Source: a bacterium (GTDB taxonomy: Bacteria; Spirochaetota; Spirochaetia; JABEVK01). From it: a DNA stretch of 6,507 nucleotides. The DNA is taken from positions 1 through 6,507 of the forward strand of contig JAJXWL010000117.1 in the NCBI GenBank assembly GCA_021781625.1, read 5' to 3'. Each line of letters opens with the position of its first letter. The first letter of the stretch is position 1. Position numbers and translations under genes: made by a program. Of this stretch, positions 1 to 6,507 are shown in pieces. The notes below the pieces were generated by a model. That model saw only the letters and a program-made list of their open reading frames with translations. It had not been told where the DNA came from and did no database searches.

Positions 1-189
1 GGAAAAATCGTTTCGGTCGATCGCCGCAAGGGTCGCGCCAAGATAGTTCTCGATTTCGATCGCAATCAATTTACCATTAACCTGGCTTTTGAAGTTCTCG
101 AAGCCGCGGCTGAGGCTCCTGTTGGCCCCTCCGGCCCTGTTGGCCAATCAGCTTCTACCGCACCGACCCCTCAGGGAAATGCGTCATGA
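1..189 (+). CDS. NusG-family transcription antiterminator, C-terminal KOW domain (5' truncated by window)
   Basis: The first 62 codons read in phase from base 1 to the TGA at 187-189. The visible start, GKIVSVDRRKGRAKIVLDF, is the pattern of a NusG/RfaH/LoaP/UpxY KOW domain (G-x-V-x-x-[IV]-D-x-x-[KR]-G-R-A-x-V), and the next stretch (TINLAFEVLE) fits the last strand. KOW domains of NusG proteins contact ribosomal protein S10 or Rho, while the missing N-terminal domain binds RNA polymerase. After the KOW fold comes a tail of about 25 residues rich in Ala, Pro, Gly and Ser, which is not part of the usual NusG core. The stop overlaps the next ATG as ATGA, so the protein is encoded at the head of, or inside, the sugar operon. 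This fits a specialised paralogue promoting processive transcription of a long polysaccharide operon rather than housekeeping nusG, which normally lies between secE and rplK. The family call is fairly firm; the specialised role is inferred. Confidence 0.8.
   Translation, partial: GKIVSVDRRKGRAKIVLDFDRNQFTINLAFEVLEAAAEAPVGPSGPVGQSASTAPTPQGNAS
118..145 (+). repeat. Short direct repeat in the NusG-like tail
   Basis: The 10-mer CCTGTTGGCC occurs at 118-127 and again at 136-145, one repeat per 18 nt (six codons). It encodes the PVG...PVG part of the tail. It looks like a small in-frame duplication in a low-complexity linker, not a regulatory element. Confidence 0.5.
173..177 (+). promoter_or_regulatory. 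Ribosome binding site for the dehydratase gene
   Basis: AGGGA lies 8 nt before the ATG at 186, inside the end of the NusG-like gene. With the ATGA stop/start overlap it supports 186 as the start and coupled translation. Confidence 0.5.
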
Positions 190-1658
190 GCTCCCGTCGG
201 TTGGTAATCATAGGCGCAGGCTTTGCGGGGCGGGCGCTAGCACGCGAAATCCGTGAGCGCTTTCCCGACCGAAGTCTCGAAGCGTTTTGGGACGATGACC
301 CGGCAAAGATCGGTTCCTTGTTGGACGGTGTTCCTGTTTTTGGTCCTATTTCAGCCCTGCAAACCCGTGAACCGGTCCCTGACGAAGCCATTCTCGCCAT
401 CCCCAGTGCCACCAAAGGCCAACTCAAACAAATTTACAACGCTGTTGTGCAGACAGGCATCCCTCGTATTCGAATTTTACCAGCTATCAGTCAAATCGTG
501 GACGGCGAGGCGCATTTTGTTCTGACTCGAGATATCGATCCCCAAGACCTTTTAGGTCGCAATCCGGTGCAGATTTCGCTTCGTCAAAGTCTGCGCTACC
601 TTAGGGGCAAGCGGGTCTTGATTACCGGCGCTGGCGGCAGTATCGGAAGCGAGCTAGCCCGTCAGCTTTTGTCAGGGGGGGCCGAACGCCTCTACCTCTT
701 GGGACACGGTGAAAACGCCATCTACCAAATCGATAAAGAACTGCGTCTTCTTCAAGCGGGGGGAGTTGGCGAGAAAGCCACCATCGTCCCCATCGTCGCC
801 GATCTTAAGGACGCCCACCACCTGCAGTTTCTTTTGTCACGCCTCAAGGCTGATGTGGTGTTTCACGCGGCCGCCCACAAACACGTTCCCATGATGGAAG
901 CCAACCCTGTAGAGGCCTGCGCCAATAACGTCTTGGGAACAAAAAACCTCTTGGAGGCTTGCCTTGAGCATCAGGTGAAAAAGTTTGTGCTGATTTCTAC
1001 CGATAAAGCGGTGCTGCCGCACTCAGTCTATGGGGTGACGAAAAAGATCAGCGAAGATTTGGTGCTTGAGGCCGGTCTGCGAGGGCAAGGTCAGTATATG
1101 ACTGTCCGCTTTGGCAATGTGCTCGGTTCCCGAGGGAGTATTGTTCCTCTCTTTCGTGAACAAATTCTGGCTGGCGGACCTGTCACCATAACCGACCCAG
1201 CCGCCTCCCGGTACTTCATGACCATTCCTGAGGCTGTGAGCTTGGTGCTCCAAACAGGAGGAATGGGCCAGGCGGGTCAGCTCTACCTTTTAGACATGGG
1301 TGAGCCCATTCTGATCGAAGATCTAGCGGCGCAAATTATACGATTTTATGGCAACGAACCGGGCAAAGATATTGCTATTCAGTACATTGGCCTGCGCCCC
1401 GGCGAACGGCTCGAAGAACGGCTTTTTGCCCCCGACGAAGAACCTGTCCCCACGGCGTATGCAAGGATCAACCGTTTGGTTCGTGCACCCGGCTCGGAGA
1501 TCTCACCACACCGGCTTGACGAGTTGCTACTCAAGCTAAAACCGGTTTGTGTTTACCACCCCGACACGGCAGGACAATACCGAAACAGGCGGGTTTTACG
1601 CGAGATTCTCCGCGAGTTTTACCCTACCCTGGAGGCCAAGAATGAACCCGAGTTCTAA
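186..1658 (+). CDS. CapD/FlaA1-family NDP-sugar 4,6-dehydratase (probable UDP-GlcNAc dehydratase), without membrane domain
   Basis: A 490-residue protein with two Rossmann units. Residues 5-60 form a CoA-binding-like domain starting LVIIGAGFAGRALA, as in long CapD/PglF/WbpM proteins. Residues about 140-415 are the extended SDR dehydratase: NAD-binding TGAGGSIG at 147-154, HAAAHKHVPMME at 227-238, STDKAV at 271-276 with catalytic Asp273/Lys274, a Y-x3-K pair at 282-286, RFGNVLGSRGSI at 308-319 and LRPGERLEE at 403-411. Family members remove water from UDP-GlcNAc to give a UDP-4-keto-6-deoxy sugar, the first step towards bacillosamine, pseudaminic acid or QuiNAc-type sugars. Long family members run about 600-650 residues with four N-terminal membrane helices; here these are absent and the ATG overlaps the upstream stop, so the protein should be soluble. 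Tyr282 stands where PglF-like enzymes have Met, as in the short PseB/FlaA1 type. The next gene, an aminotransferase, would use the product. Exact substrate is uncertain. Confidence 0.92.
   Translation: MSSRRLVIIGAGFAGRALAREIRERFPDRSLEAFWDDDPAKIGSLLDGVPVFGPISALQTREPVPDEAILAIPSATKGQLKQIYNAVVQTGIPRIRILPAISQIVDGEAHFVLTRDIDPQDLLGRNPVQISLRQSLRYLRGKRVLITGAGGSIGSELARQLLSGGAERLYLLGHGENAIYQIDKELRLLQAGGVGEKATIVPIVADLKDAHHLQFLLSRLKADVVFHAAAHKHVPMMEANPVEACANNVLGTKNLLEACLEHQVKKFVLISTDKAVLPHSVYGVTKKISEDLVLEAGLRGQGQYMTVRFGNVLGSRGSIVPLFREQILAGGPVTITDPAASRYFMTIPEAVSLVLQTGGMGQAGQLYLLDMGEPILIEDLAAQIIRFYGNEPGKDIAIQYIGLRPGERLEERLFAPDEEPVPTAYARINRLVRAPGSEISPHRLDELLLKLKPVCVYHPDTAGQYRNRRVLREILREFYPTLEAKNEPEF
1631..1635 (+). 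promoter_or_regulatory. Ribosome binding site that fixes the aminotransferase start
   Basis: GGAGG lies 6 nt before the ATG at 1642. It selects this start over an in-frame ATG at 1549, which would add 31 residues overlapping the dehydratase with no family similarity. Confidence 0.8.
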
Positions 1659-2838
1659 GGTCACCAGCGTTCCCTTCTCGCGTCCTGTTCTTGGTCCCGA
1701 AGAGGAACAAGCGGTCGTAGAGGTTTTGAGGTCCGGTTGGCTTACCACGGGCCCGCAGGCTCAGGCCTTTGAAACTGAGTTTGCCGACTACGCCGGAACC
1801 AAGTTTGCGCTTGCCGTCAACAGCGCGACGGCAGGCCTGCATTTAGCCCTCGAAGCGCTTGGAGTTGGCCCCGGGGATGTCTGTGCTGTTCCCGATTACA
1901 CCTTTACAGCAACAGCAGAAGTTGTCCGGTACCAGGGCGCCGACCCGGCATTTTTAGATTGTTCGCCCGAAAGCCCGAATTTTGACCCCCAACGACTCGA
2001 AGATCTTTTAAAAAAACAGCGCGTTAAGGTGGTGCTTCCCGTGCATTTGACAGGTGAGCCCTTTGACAGCGAGGCCTTGTCTTTTCTTCAAAACCGTTAC
2101 GGTTTTGCCGTTGTTGAAGATGCCGCACACATGATTCCCTCGCGACGTCCCGACGGCCGTTTGTGGGGAGCCGGAAGTGAGGTTGGTGTGTTTTCTTTTT
2201 ATGCTAACAAGAATATGACCACCGGCGAAGGGGGGATGATTGTCACGGACAACGAAGCCTGGGCCCACCGTATGCGCCGTATGCGACTCCATGGCATCGA
2301 CCGGGATGCCTTTGACCGCTTTACCTCGCGGCGGGGCTCTTGGGAGTATCAAATTGTCGCTCCCGGCTTTAAGTACAACATGACTGATGTTGCGGCGGCG
2401 ATTGGCCGTGTCCAGTTGACCAAAGCCCAAGCTTTTTGGACGGCACGCCAACGATTGGTTCAACGCTACCGCGAAGGTTTGGCGTCCTGCCACTCTTTAG
2501 AGTTACCAAGCTGGCGCGAGGATCATGCCTGGCATGTCTTCAGTCCGTTGCTGGCACCCGCCGTGTCCGCTTGGCGGGACCGCTTTGTTCAAGAATTAAC
2601 GCAACGAGGCGTTGGCATCTCGGTGCACTACACTCCCCTTCATCGCATGCAATATTGGCGCGAAACTTATGGGCTTAGCTCTGAGGCGTTTCCCCACTCA
2701 GCATCACGCGGCGAAAGAACATTTTCGCTTCCCCTTTTCCCTTCGATGACCGAAGCCCAGCAAGAGTTTGTCCTTGATGCGGTTATACAAGTTCATCAGC
2801 AGATGAGCCAGGAGGTCGACTCTGGCCACTCGCCGTAA
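1642..2838 (+). CDS. DegT/DnrJ/EryC1/StrS (ArnB/PseC-type) PLP-dependent sugar aminotransferase
   Basis: A 398-residue protein, normal for this family. Motifs in order: PFSRPVLGPEEEQAVVEVL and SGWLTTGPQ near the N-terminus; VNSATAGLHLAL for phosphate binding of PLP; PDYTFTATAE; PVHLTGEPFD; VVEDAAHMIPS with Asp160 pairing to the pyridine nitrogen; SFYANKNMTTGEGGM with Lys190 as the Schiff-base lysine; then VHYTPLHRMQYWRETYG and SLPLFPSMT, typical of ArnB/PseC/PglE-like C4 aminotransferases. These transfer an amino group, usually from glutamate, to a UDP-4-keto-6-deoxy sugar. The catalytic Lys is present and no iron-sulfur cysteine cluster is visible, so this is an aminotransferase and not a ColD/E1-type 3-dehydrase. 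It overlaps the dehydratase by 17 nt, so the pair would yield a UDP-4-amino-4,6-dideoxy sugar. The translation start is set by GGAGG 6 nt upstream. The regio- and stereochemistry cannot be read from sequence. Confidence 0.93.
   Translation: MNPSSKVTSVPFSRPVLGPEEEQAVVEVLRSGWLTTGPQAQAFETEFADYAGTKFALAVNSATAGLHLALEALGVGPGDVCAVPDYTFTATAEVVRYQGADPAFLDCSPESPNFDPQRLEDLLKKQRVKVVLPVHLTGEPFDSEALSFLQNRYGFAVVEDAAHMIPSRRPDGRLWGAGSEVGVFSFYANKNMTTGEGGMIVTDNEAWAHRMRRMRLHGIDRDAFDRFTSRRGSWEYQIVAPGFKYNMTDVAAAIGRVQLTKAQAFWTARQRLVQRYREGLASCHSLELPSWREDHAWHVFSPLLAPAVSAWRDRFVQELTQRGVGISVHYTPLHRMQYWRETYGLSSEAFPHSASRGERTFSLPLFPSMTEAQQEFVLDAVIQVHQQMSQEVDSGHSP
2810..2815 (+). promoter_or_regulatory. Ribosome binding site pointing to a CTG start
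   Basis: AGGAGG lies 6 nt before CTG at 2822, the same spacing as at the aminotransferase start. No ATG, GTG or TTG in the correct frame follows it until the ATG at 2909, which is 93 nt away and too far to be served by it. Confidence 0.65.
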
Positions 2839-4948
2839 GACGTCATCAGACCCCATTCGCGACCCTCTCTTTCACCCCGATCCCCGGCTTTTCGAGACTC
2901 CACCGGGAATGCTTTTTGGCTTAACCCTTCGTTCGCCGGTCGCGCATGGCAAGCTTTTGGCTATGGTTCACCCCCCGCTTCCCGAGGGCTTTACGCTTTT
3001 GCGGGCTGAAGATCTTCCGGGAAGCGATGTTCTACACGTGCTAAAAAGCCGTCTGCCTCTGCTCAACGGTGATCTCATACGCTATGTTGGTGAACCGATT
3101 GCTTTGGTGTCAGGACCAAATGAAACTTTGGTGCGCTCCTGGGCCAAAAAGGTACGCTTTTTATTTCAGAAACCGACTCTGGACCAATATAGCCAGGGTA
3201 TACGGCTCAAATCGCGGTCGCTGGCAGGGGGGCACTACATCCCTGATGACCAAAACGTGCGCCTCATCGAGGGGGTCTACTCGACAGGGGCTCAAGATGC
3301 CGGGGTATTTGATGCCTGCGAAGCTACTGCCCTTGTTCAGAACGACGAGGCCTGGCTGAGCGTCAAAAGCCAATGGCCAGGAAATGTGGTTCACAGTGTC
3401 GCCCGCGCCTTGGGGCTCGAAGCGAACAAGGTGAAGGTCAAAGCGCGGCCGTCGTCAGCCCACCTCAATAGTCAAGTTTGGTTTCCGACAGTGCTTGCCG
3501 TCCACGCCGCCCTGTTGTCGCAAGCTAGTGGGCATCCGGTCAGAATGACGCTGAGCAAGGACGAAGAGTTTTTCTATTCGCCCAAGCGACCAGAGTCCCG
3601 AATTCTCCTCCGCTCAACCGTTGACGCCCAAGGCCGCATTCTCGACTTCTCGGCAGACGCCGTGCTCAATGTTGGTGCTTATGGTGTCCTCGAAGAGGAA
3701 TTGCTTGATCGCTGTATCCTGGGCCTCTTGACGCCTTACCGTTTTGGGGCGTTCCAAGCCAATGCTCATGCCGAGCTGAGCCACACTCCTCCTCGTGGTC
3801 CCGTAGGGGGCATGGGAGAAAACCTAGGAACGTTTGCGCTGGAAAGCCACGTTCAAGATATCTGCGAGGCTCTCGAGCTGGACCCCCTTGCCTGGCGAAA
3901 GGATAACGCACTGGGCCGTGATCAAATCGCTTTTACGGGCGAAGCGTGGAAAGCAGATGCCCCCTTAACAGCGCTCGTTTCTGAGCTAGGCAAAGCGTCA
4001 GATTTTGGGCGCAAATATGCTAGCTTTCATCAACTGAATTCGCGAACGCAAGAATGGCGAGATGAAGCTCTCCCCTTAAGAGGCATAGGGCTGGCTACGG
4101 GTTTTCAAGGAAACGGCTTTTTAGCCGGGGGAACTTCTACGGTGAATCTCGAGATACGGCTTGAGACAGATTCCAGCTTGAGTATCTTCTCCCCCTTGGT
4201 AACCGCCAACGAACACTTAGAAGCTCTTTGGAAACACGCGCTTGGCGACCCCCTTGGTATTCCCCCTGAACAGGTTCGCATTTGTCCTGTTCTGACCGGG
4301 GAACATCCTACCGGCGGCCCGTCGCTGGCATCACGCTCTTTCGAAATCTTACCGAAATTATTAGCCAAAGCTGGACATACGCTGGCTCAGCGACGAGCTC
4401 ATCAGCCCTTGCCTTTGCATCTTCATACCCTCTTCAGGCGCAAGGCCAACCCGGCCTGGGACCCAGAGAACTTTACCGGTCAGCCCTTCTTATCGTTGTC
4501 GTGGGTCGGGGCGGTAGCCGAAGTGGAAGTTCTTCCCCTACTTTCAGAAATTCGTATTAAAAAAATCACAGTGATGGCGGATGCCGGGCCCCTGATGGAC
4601 GAAACCTCTGCCCGAGATGCGATTACTGAGGGTGTTTTGTCAGCGGTGGGCTGGGTGTTTTCTGAGAACATCTTTTGGGAGAAACTCACCATCCCTCGGT
4701 CGATCTTTCAAAAATATCGACTACCCAGTGTGCGTGAGGTTCCTCGCCTAGAAATTCTATTTTTTCAGAATCCTAAGGGGAGCTCACCACGCGGCTTAGG
4801 GTCCCTAGGAAGCAGTGCAACAGCTCCAGCACGCTTATCAGCGATTCGACAGGCTCTGGCACCCAGCTGGAGGCATTTACCAGTGACGAGAAAAATGTTA
4901 GACGAGGCTTTGAGAAAACATGAAGCAGAACTTGATCCTGAACGGTGA
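2822..4948 (+). CDS. Molybdenum hydroxylase (xanthine dehydrogenase/CoxL-like) large subunit homologue with degenerate Mo site
   Basis: Read from CTG 2822 the protein has 708 residues, somewhat short for CoxL/XdhA-type subunits (about 750-800). Family marks, in this numbering: PPGMLFGLTLRSPVAHGK at 27-44, IRYVGEPIALV at 86-96, EGVYSTGAQ at 150-158, VRMTLSKDEEF at 240-250, NVGAYG at 283-288, FALES at 338-342, RGIGLATGFQGNGF at 420-433, TGGPSLASRS near 497-506, and VGAVAEVEV at 562-570. The first ATG (2909, residue 30) lies inside the conserved GML-x4-LRSP motif, so translation must begin upstream; CTG with AGGAGG is the only supported choice. Key active-site features are missing: the GGGFGGK loop reads SSAHLNSQ (211-218), AFRGFG reads PVGGMG, and the C-terminal GxGE reads GLGSLGSS. 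Active enzymes hydroxylate substrates at a Mo-pterin centre; this one probably cannot do so in the normal way. It overlaps both neighbours. Family call is sound, function unknown. Confidence 0.82.
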   Translation: MATRRKTSSDPIRDPLFHPDPRLFETPPGMLFGLTLRSPVAHGKLLAMVHPPLPEGFTLLRAEDLPGSDVLHVLKSRLPLLNGDLIRYVGEPIALVSGPNETLVRSWAKKVRFLFQKPTLDQYSQGIRLKSRSLAGGHYIPDDQNVRLIEGVYSTGAQDAGVFDACEATALVQNDEAWLSVKSQWPGNVVHSVARALGLEANKVKVKARPSSAHLNSQVWFPTVLAVHAALLSQASGHPVRMTLSKDEEFFYSPKRPESRILLRSTVDAQGRILDFSADAVLNVGAYGVLEEELLDRCILGLLTPYRFGAFQANAHAELSHTPPRGPVGGMGENLGTFALESHVQDICEALELDPLAWRKDNALGRDQIAFTGEAWKADAPLTALVSELGKASDFGRKYASFHQLNSRTQEWRDEALPLRGIGLATGFQGNGFLAGGTSTVNLEIRLETDSSLSIFSPLVTANEHLEALWKHALGDPLGIPPEQVRICPVLTGEHPTGGPSLASRSFEILPKLLAKAGHTLAQRRAHQPLPLHLHTLFRRKANPAWDPENFTGQPFLSLSWVGAVAEVEVLPLLSEIRIKKITVMADAGPLMDETSARDAITEGVLSAVGWVFSENIFWEKLTIPRSIFQKYRLPSVREVPRLEILFFQNPKGSSPRGLGSLGSSATAPARLSAIRQALAPSWRHLPVTRKMLDEALRKHEAELDPER

Positions 4949-5402
4949 GGACGTAAGCCTCAAGGGCGAAGATGAAGACTCTCTTTTTGCCGTTCTAAAA
5001 GCAGAAACCAAACTTTTTTCGGGCATCATCTGTTGTCAGAAGGGTTTCTGCGGCCGCTGTCATGTACTCTTAGAGGGCCGCGAAGTTCCCTCGTGTTTGG
5101 TGCCATTTTATCAGGCTCGCCAGCGAGAAGTCGTGACCCCCGAAGGCTTCGCTGCCACCGAGGAACACCGGATTTTTCGCCAGCTTCTCGATGAGGAGGG
5201 GCTGGTGTTTTGCCACCAATGTACCGAAGCTCAAATCTTTCACCTGAGTGCCTACCTCGAACAGTTCCCCGCCCCCGAAGAAGAAGAATTGCGAACCGCG
5301 ATTTCTGAGATACCCTGCCGTTGTGGTAGCCGTCCTGTTCTCGAACGTGCCGTACGCCGACTGGCCGCCCTCAAGGAGTCCGACCGTGCCGGACGAAGAT
5401 AA
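4920..5402 (+). CDS. 2Fe-2S subunit of the molybdenum-hydroxylase-like complex (CoxS/XdhC-type)
   Basis: A 160-residue protein of the size usual for CoxS-type small subunits. The N-terminal half is a plant-ferredoxin fold with Cys39-x4-Cys44-x2-Cys47-x11-Cys59 (core CQKGFCGRC), the first 2Fe-2S site. The C-terminal helical half keeps Cys98-x2-Cys101 and the Cys133-Arg-Cys135 pair of the second site. Surrounding residues differ from the norm: CHQCTEA where most have CGFCTPG, and CRCGSR where most have CRCTGY. An additional Cys38 sits next to Cys39. In working enzymes these clusters pass electrons from the Mo site to FAD. The start overlaps the large subunit by 29 nt; its ribosome site is weak (GAGG at 4904-4907, 12 nt away, or GAG at 4912-4914), suggesting translation coupled to the upstream gene. 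All eight cluster cysteines are present, so both clusters should form. Confidence 0.92.
   Translation: MKQNLILNGEDVSLKGEDEDSLFAVLKAETKLFSGIICCQKGFCGRCHVLLEGREVPSCLVPFYQARQREVVTPEGFAATEEHRIFRQLLDEEGLVFCHQCTEAQIFHLSAYLEQFPAPEEEELRTAISEIPCRCGSRPVLERAVRRLAALKESDRAGRR
5373..5378 (+). promoter_or_regulatory. Ribosome binding site selecting a GTG start for the FAD subunit
   Basis: AAGGAG lies 7 nt before GTG at 5386. An in-frame ATG at 5248 would add 46 residues lying wholly inside the 2Fe-2S gene with no family resemblance, so GTG is preferred. Confidence 0.75.
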
Positions 5403-6246
5403 CCTCCCACCCCTGGTTCATACGCCAAAAACTCTAACTGAAGCTTTGGCGCTACTTAACGCCTATCCGAAAGCCCAGCTGTGGGCAGGCGGCACTGCCA
5501 GTCCCGAACAAGATTTTAGTTCACCGATCCGTCTACCGACTACCGTGGTGTCGTTGCACCTTGTCGAAGACCTGAAGCGGGTGCAGTACGGAGACAGGTT
5601 TGTTGATTTAGGGGCGGGAATGACGCTGAACCAAGTTTTGCATGTCATGAAAGCCTTTCTCAACCCGGCGCTCCGTCAAGCGATTTTAGCTACTGGCTAC
5701 ACGGCGTTGCGAAACTTAGCAACCTTAGGGGGGAACCTCTGTCAAAAAGGATTCTTTGGCGATCTGTTCCCTGTCCTGCACCTCATTGGTGCGCAATTTG
5801 AGTTTCGTGGTCTTAGGTCAGCAAGGTGGCTCACCTCGACACAGGTTTCTGATGAAGGTAGGCTTACCCCCCTTGCCGGAGAAATCCTCACACGAGTCCG
5901 CATTCCCCAAGAGGATTGGCCGCATTTCTTTTATCAAAAAATTGGGAACTTTCGCACGCCTTGGGATGAGCGTCTTTCGATGACAGCGTTGGCGCGTACA
6001 AAACATGGCCTCGTGGAAGCACTCCGCTTAATTTTTTACCTTCCCCACACCGGTCTTTTGCGCCATCGAGGTCTCGAAGCTGAATTCGTTGGCCAACGGG
6101 TACCTTTTGCCCCCCGTTTACGTCAAGAAGCCTTAAAAAGCATTCAGGAGGCGATGCAGGAACTATCGTTACCTCCCAGCCTTTTTCAAAAGGATCGTGT
6201 CCTTCACATGACCCGTTGGGTGCTTTCGCAAATTCAAGACGATTAA
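5386..6246 (+). CDS. FAD-binding subunit of the molybdenum-hydroxylase-like complex (CoxM/XdhB-type)
   Basis: Read from GTG 5386, the protein has 286 residues, the normal length for stand-alone FAD subunits of this family. It has the two-part FAD_binding_5 pattern: AGGT at 34-37 for the pyrophosphate, then RNLATLGGNLC at 109-119 followed by GDLFPVLHLIGA at 125-136. LAGEILTRVRIP at 163-174 and the FYQKIGNFR segment near 182-190 match the transition into the CO_deh_flav_C domain, which fills residues about 180-280. In active enzymes this subunit takes electrons from the 2Fe-2S clusters and hands them to NAD+, a quinone or another acceptor. It overlaps the 2Fe-2S gene by 17 nt and is the last gene of the operon. 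No strong loss of FAD contacts is visible, in contrast to the large subunit. The electron acceptor or donor cannot be told from sequence. Confidence 0.88.
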   Translation: MPDEDNLPPLVHTPKTLTEALALLNAYPKAQLWAGGTASPEQDFSSPIRLPTTVVSLHLVEDLKRVQYGDRFVDLGAGMTLNQVLHVMKAFLNPALRQAILATGYTALRNLATLGGNLCQKGFFGDLFPVLHLIGAQFEFRGLRSARWLTSTQVSDEGRLTPLAGEILTRVRIPQEDWPHFFYQKIGNFRTPWDERLSMTALARTKHGLVEALRLIFYLPHTGLLRHRGLEAEFVGQRVPFAPRLRQEALKSIQEAMQELSLPPSLFQKDRVLHMTRWVLSQIQDD

Positions 6247-6279: not shown

Positions 6280-6507
6280 TCAGGTTTTGAAGGGGCCGCC
6301 AGGTCGCCCCGAGCCTAGGCGAGACCGGGCTTCGGCTATCGCTTGCTTCCACAGTCGCGACACCATCACATTCAACTTTTCTTGCCTCTGTACAAAAAAC
6401 GACAGCGACCGGTGAAAAATGCGCAGGGCGGCCAAAACATCGGGTTTAAGAGTATTTCTTGAGGCGCCATAACCAAAGTTTTCGATGGGACGCAGGAACT
6501 TCCAGTG
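6280..6507 (-). CDS. C-terminus of an unrecognised basic protein (5' end beyond window)
   Basis: On the minus strand an open frame enters at base 6507 and runs 75 codons to a TGA at 6282-6280. It begins HWKFLRPIENFGYGASRN, continues through a predicted helical stretch rich in Arg, Lys, Leu and Phe (about residues 21-62 of the visible part), and ends in a Gly/Pro/Arg-rich tail (GSGRPGGPFK). The frame fills the region not covered by the operon and stops just before it, as expected for a real convergent gene. I do not recognise the family; no catalytic motif, signal peptide or membrane segment is clear in this part. It could still be a chance open frame, since there is no start codon context to test. 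Confidence 0.5.
   Translation of the reverse strand, partial: HWKFLRPIENFGYGASRNTLKPDVLAALRIFHRSLSFFVQRQEKLNVMVSRLWKQAIAEARSRLGSGRPGGPFKT

Follow-up and report, generated by a model that had tools for sequence, protein, structure and literature searches.

Xanthine dehydrogenase XdhAB of Rhodobacter capsulatus and the bovine xanthine oxidoreductase are the closest described systems to the complex reported here. In these enzymes the molybdenum cofactor (Moco) is bound by the loops GGGFGGK, FRGFG and MGQG of the large subunit, together with Gln112 of the iron-sulfur (Fe-S) subunit, and Glu802 and Glu1261 are catalytic. We analysed a 6,507 nt stretch of spirochaetal DNA (contig JAJXWL010000117.1, assembly GCA_021781625.1), hereafter the window, containing a gene (2822-4948) whose product has the large-subunit fold of the xanthine oxidase family and sequence homology to it but, with respect to both enzymes, lacks GGGFGGK, Glu802, Arg912, Gln1040 and Glu1261. 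We propose, with a probability of ca. 0.8, that the complex formed by this product and those of the two following genes, for an Fe-S and a flavin adenine dinucleotide (FAD) subunit (together, the trio), no longer binds Moco and has been repurposed. This supports the original prediction, made from the letters of the window, that a molybdenum-hydroxylase scaffold of full length has lost any recognisable cofactor site and is maintained for another function; the frame is, as it stated, full-length and uninterrupted, with no stop.

Bovine positions were mapped by alignment to R. capsulatus XdhB and to intact relatives, the numbers of Glu802, Glu1261 and Arg880 being those given in the literature. 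The relevant features of the large subunit are the following:

3371..3376, plus strand: Q184, the kept equivalent of bovine Gln767, followed by the family-specific W185 (by alignment)
3452..3487, plus strand: former GGGFGGK-E loop, now SSAHLNSQVWFP, with V219 at the position of Glu802 and the family-specific W220
3710..3712, plus strand: R297, the kept equivalent of bovine Arg880 (by alignment)
3794..3823, plus strand: former FRGFG loop, now RGPVGGMGEN, with G329 at Arg912
4001..4015, plus strand: family motif D394-F-G-R397-K398, from residue conservation in degenerate proteins
4190..4225, plus strand: former MGQG region, with E464 at Gln1040
4793..4816, plus strand: former GxGE, now GLGSLGSS (residues 658-665), with S661 at Glu1261

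The window thus lacks the three Moco-binding loops and Gln112, as well as both catalytic glutamates, and the position of bovine Gln1194 is occupied by S607. The replacements SSAHLNSQ (residues 211-218, 3452-3475), PVGGMG (residues 327-332) and GLGSLGSS lie where the original prediction had placed them. Two of the four residues that it singled out, Arg912 and Glu1261, are indeed lost (G329 and S661), while the other two, Gln767 and Arg880, are kept (Q184 and R297). It was likewise right about the loss of FRGFG, but the arginine of that loop is Arg912, and the substrate arginine, Arg880, sits elsewhere and is present. No intact glutamate or cofactor loop was seen elsewhere in the large subunit in the alignments, structures being compared at the level of the fold only.

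A protein search showed that close relatives of the window large subunit have the same losses. Among 392 genomes of the phylum searched, 228 had a match, either intact or degenerate. The loci fetched were the strongest matches and not a random draw, and were classified by motif: a first set of 64 loci comprised 57 degenerate and seven intact ones, and a second set of 78 usable loci comprised 70 degenerate and eight intact ones, these being called intact if Phe798 and Arg912 were both present (second hits in L238, L243 and L244, poorly aligned fragments of other xanthine dehydrogenase genes, were left out). From the total of 127 degenerate loci, 126 belong to the 392 genomes (G005 has a separate origin and G001 is not counted), and the degenerate family is therefore present in at least 126 of the 392. 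The 57 first-set loci and database proteins, some of them identical genes, made up a group of 91 degenerate proteins. Neither these nor the 70 further degenerate proteins have Glu802 or Arg912, a loss too consistent to be a matter of chance, with Phe798 in two and seven, and Gln1040 in two and one, respectively. Arg912 and Glu1261 were present in 18/18 intact proteins and Glu802 in 14/18, and each of the three was found in 8/8 intact proteins of the second set.

A tree of 109 proteins separated 91 degenerate from 18 intact sequences with a support of 1.0 and a long branch (0.62), best explained by a single descent of the degenerate complex from a molybdenum hydroxylase of the xanthine dehydrogenase type. 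In the minority of cases in which the source named the organism, degenerate relatives were from spirochaetes (P0030, P0035, P0125); P0125, from Treponema parvum, is identical to the L089 protein, anchoring genome G335 to this species, and is labelled in the source as a "xanthine dehydrogenase family protein molybdopterin-binding subunit". The large subunit is also retained in a genome of 1.1 Mb, G063, which, judging from its gene order, is probably that of Treponema pallidum. The degenerate complex is carried by many spirochaetes, among them probably the agent of syphilis, and often by cells that seem to lack the capacity for cofactor synthesis. A literature search, with subscription papers mostly beyond its reach, found no description of a family of molybdenum-free proteins resembling xanthine dehydrogenase.

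Purifying selection, for which the original prediction had suggested a test, was evident from dN/dS values with respect to the nearest relative (L001) of 0.058 for the large subunit, 0.051 for the Fe-S subunit, 0.039 for the FAD subunit, 0.057 for the upstream dehydratase-like gene and 0.093 for the aminotransferase gene that follows it. Large-subunit length varied between 648 and 733 across the 57 degenerate loci. Moreover, the degenerate proteins have conserved residues of their own: W185 occurs in 99 % of the 91 degenerate proteins vs. 6 % of the intact ones (and in 68/70 of the further degenerate proteins), W220 in 93 vs. 6 % (55/70), D394 in 96 vs. 17 % (62/70), R397 in 99 vs. 22 % (66/70), W470 in 87 vs. 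0 % (59/70) and E293 in 82 vs. 0 % (56/70), with K398 in 97 % of the 91 and 67/70. W185 and W220 immediately follow the positions of Gln767 and Glu802.

The trio closes a run of six genes on one strand of the window, each overlapping its neighbour:

1..189, plus strand: 3′ end of a NusG-like (RfaH/LoaP-type) antiterminator gene (C-terminal match to NCBIfam LoaP, 3.7e-5, below cut-off)
186..1658, plus strand: UDP-sugar 4,6-dehydratase-like short-chain dehydrogenase/reductase (SDR; PF02719, 2.7e-103)
1642..2838, plus strand: DegT/PseC-like sugar aminotransferase (PF01041, 1.2e-106)
2822..4948, plus strand: xanthine-dehydrogenase-like large subunit, predicted to be molybdenum-free (CTG start; open frame without stop)
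4920..5402, plus strand: 2Fe-2S subunit (PF01799, 5.1e-9; all eight cluster cysteines kept; pterin Gln112 replaced by Phe)
5386..6246, plus strand: FAD subunit, GTG start (PF00941, 7.9e-28; motifs AGGT and ATLGGN)

The eight cysteines of the small subunit make up two [2Fe-2S] ligand sets, and the FAD subunit is predicted from its PF00941 match and motifs to bind FAD. Within the family, Gln112 was absent from all 123 degenerate Fe-S subunits compared (window included), of which 79 have all eight cysteines, 36 have seven and eight show a plain loss; in the 36 with seven, CxC is shifted to CC (36/36). The Fe-S subunit of L118, presumably from T. pallidum, has 0/4 of the plant-type cluster cysteines. 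Those of L057 and L240 seem to lack nearly all cluster cysteines, with the gene order of the trio intact, the L240 match being weak (56 bits). FAD motifs are mostly retained in the family. The redox chain is thus likely to be active in the clade of the window and dispensable in some members, as judged from ligand conservation.

The start of the large subunit is not an ATG but probably the CTG at 2822, six bases past AGGAGG and with a 17-base overlap with the end of the DegT gene; relatives align from this codon onward. The first ATG, at 2909, is already within the conserved region. The SDR keeps the Rossmann glycine motif, S-T-D-K and YxxxK, as predicted for a UDP-sugar 4,6-dehydratase, and its ATG overlaps the TGA of the NusG-like gene. 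The DegT product conserves the pyridoxal phosphate lysine, in NKNMTTGEGG, as predicted for a sugar aminotransferase. The nearest genome record (L001), a Spirochaetales metagenome-assembled genome, shows 93 % identity and identical gene order, and its full-length copy of the NusG-like gene matches PF02357 and KOW. A 316-residue protein encoded on the opposite strand of this record (L001:8322-9272) had no Pfam match at E 0.1; window positions 6280-6507 (minus strand) hold only the 3′ part of a copy. Upstream of the operon, a divergent gene that looks secreted forms a cluster of 37 loci, and a similar open reading frame in L039 (12025-13272) carries a SPOR domain. In L072, the SDR and DegT genes are separated by a peptidase S41 gene (4271-5575).

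The DegT gene is directly upstream of the large subunit gene in 49/57 and 59/70 degenerate loci (108/127) and in none of the 15 intact loci; a NusG-like gene was identified in 30/57 degenerate loci of the first set. Flagellin (PF00669) was found in 59/63 and 66/70 genomes, leaving eight without it; setting aside G389, which has an intact gene only, there are seven degenerate carriers without flagellin. An adjacent DegT gene occurs in 0/7 of these vs. 108/120 of those with flagellin (Fisher p 5.6e-7), the effective number being lower than seven because they fall in three separate clades. The absence of flagellin expected from a missing DegT gene, an expectation recorded only afterwards, was seen in L226, L230, L235 and L240, but not in L232. 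Among the 12 flagellated degenerate loci without an adjacent DegT gene, at least two (L178 and L206) are uninformative because of their position at the edge of a contig. In L219 (genome G144) there is no DegT gene between those of the SDR and the degenerate large subunit, which directly adjoin each other. No close SDR was found elsewhere in the three flagellin-less carriers searched (G375, G244 and G233), and the link between SDR and flagellin is imperfect because flagellated carriers G362 and G221 also lack one.

In Treponema denticola, the FlaB proteins bear a glycan of 450.2 Da without which filaments do not assemble (PMC9481697). We know of no synthesis genes for that glycan. The 4-amino-sugar nucleotide probably made by SDR and DegT would be used to glycosylate flagellin, which links a sugar gene pair to flagellins. 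Most simply, flagellin glycosylation would be the task of SDR and DegT, and the trio would have a role apart from it that outlasts theirs; such an independent function is suggested because the trio survives where flagellin and the SDR and DegT genes are gone. That the whole operon works in flagellin glycosylation and in nothing else was rejected for the trio, which the seven flagellin-less carriers keep.

The same distribution bears on the main rival to our proposal, that the trio helps to make the sugar of its own operon, e.g., as a reductase or a scaffold for a DegT-bound intermediate, in analogy to 3-deoxysugar synthesis, where E3 serves E1. The overlapping genes, their conserved order and the frequent adjacency of DegT and large subunit genes fit this. 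We nevertheless consider it unlikely: the flagellin-less carriers hold the trio with no DegT gene beside it, including the three without a close SDR; there is one clade of seven loci in which the large subunit gene does not adjoin DegT (L178, among them, ends at a contig edge); and DegT keeps its aminotransferase lysine, from which no need for electrons is expected.

Cofactor supply was examined by profile searches for MoaA, MoeA and XdhC in the 63 genomes of the first set, many of them drafts in which single absences carry little weight. MoaA (PF06463) matched in 25/63 (13 over the cut-off), MoeA (PF03453) in 23/63, and XdhC (PF13478) was over the cut-off in 21/63; neither a MoaA hit nor MoeA was found in 38 of the 57 degenerate genomes, nor in 31 of the 49 with DegT beside the degenerate large subunit. 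These absences, together with the replacement of GGGFGGK, FRGFG, MGQG and Gln112, make it improbable that the complex is an unusual active hydroxylase that still holds Moco, or some variant of it, by contacts of the backbone and the retained Gln767 and Arg880. XdhC, a chaperone usually needed by this enzyme family (PMC2997495), gave no hit in G001, the genome closest to the window but a draft, nor in G007, although G005 has one; this may be a further difference from XdhAB and the bovine enzyme.

Several observations weigh against the loss of Moco. Pfam Moco-domain matches persist in the large subunit, and MoaA and MoeA are present in G005, G007 and G001, in the last of which genome content is compatible with Moco. 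Gln767, Arg880 and Glu1261 are kept in 77/91, 62/91 and 34/91 degenerate proteins and in 42/70, 54/70 and 23/70 of the further ones, for which reason the pocket may in part remain in use; the change of Glu1261 to serine noted in the original prediction holds for the clade of the window, but not family-wide. Additionally, neither MoaA nor MoeA was found in G233, with an intact-type large subunit (L121), so that the absence calls must include false negatives or have other causes, and no MoeA was found in G389, with an intact-type paralogue. As to a redox role, electron transfer cannot be essential across the family because of the eight Fe-S subunits with a plain loss of cluster cysteines. G001 has dimethyl sulfoxide (DMSO) reductase family genes, one sharing a contig with its MoaA and MoeA, and the same occurs in G007; in G005 no such genes were found, and it has XdhC and two strong PF02738 matches on the contig holding its MoaA and MoeA. 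In the clade of the window, Moco is probably available but with another likely user, because G001 and G007 hold those DMSO-reductase-family genes.

That the large subunit is a decaying remnant kept by operon linkage alone would agree with its lower identity to the window from L039 onward (21-33 % vs. 53-63 % for the SDR, leaving out L097 as well as L046, for which the SDR hit is a paralogue) and with the loss of Fe-S ligands in some members, but we reject it as very improbable given the dN/dS of 0.058, the length range, the family-specific residues in both sets and its persistence in the 1.1 Mb genome. Because of these residues and the low dN/dS, a repurposed, constrained site appears to fit better than decay.

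If the complex has been repurposed without Moco, FAD and the two [2Fe-2S] clusters would still form a short electron chain in the clade of the window, probably fed by NAD(P)H, and the large subunit would have turned into a binding scaffold whose former molybdenum cleft may be closed or reshaped by the conserved tryptophans adjoining the former sites of Gln767 and Glu802. This electron path, and any partner of the complex, are put forward very tentatively. In its broadest form, the proposal is that spirochaetes turned xanthine dehydrogenase once into a widespread molybdenum-free complex, either redox-active or a scaffold, whose new active site occupies the former cleft and which is important enough to be retained in a reduced genome (probably of T. 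pallidum) and in flagellin-less carriers, and that the "xanthine dehydrogenase family" molybdopterin-binding subunits of treponemes are this new complex; we see this as possible, at somewhat less than even odds.

Molybdenum hydroxylases are annotated by fold, and such annotation misleads here because the fold occurs without the cofactor site, often in genomes in which the searches detected neither MoaA nor MoeA, in a family this frequent in one phylum. The family might explain the molybdoenzyme-like genes of treponemes, and offers a natural system for asking what the xanthine dehydrogenase scaffold does without molybdenum.

Within the same phylum, seven intact relatives of the xanthine dehydrogenase type (L063, L070, L074, L075, L087, L093 and L121), six of which belong to the intact group closest to the degenerate proteins, have, like the window, the set of large, Fe-S and FAD subunits (a FAD subunit was not found beside L121). 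Unlike the window, they keep GGxFGGK, FRGFG and MGQG and in no case (0/7) lie beside SDR and DegT genes. The sugar gene pair resembles PglF/PglE or PseB/PseC in combining a 4,6-dehydratase and a DegT aminotransferase with their active-site residues kept; it differs from PseB/PseC in that the window proteins are below the curated cut-offs and are followed by the trio. NuoG of respiratory complex I is a relative of molybdoenzymes that lost molybdenum and is now an electron-transfer or structural subunit; it has the DMSO-reductase fold and not that of xanthine oxidase. By analogy, the complex described here would correspond to NuoG on the xanthine-oxidase side.

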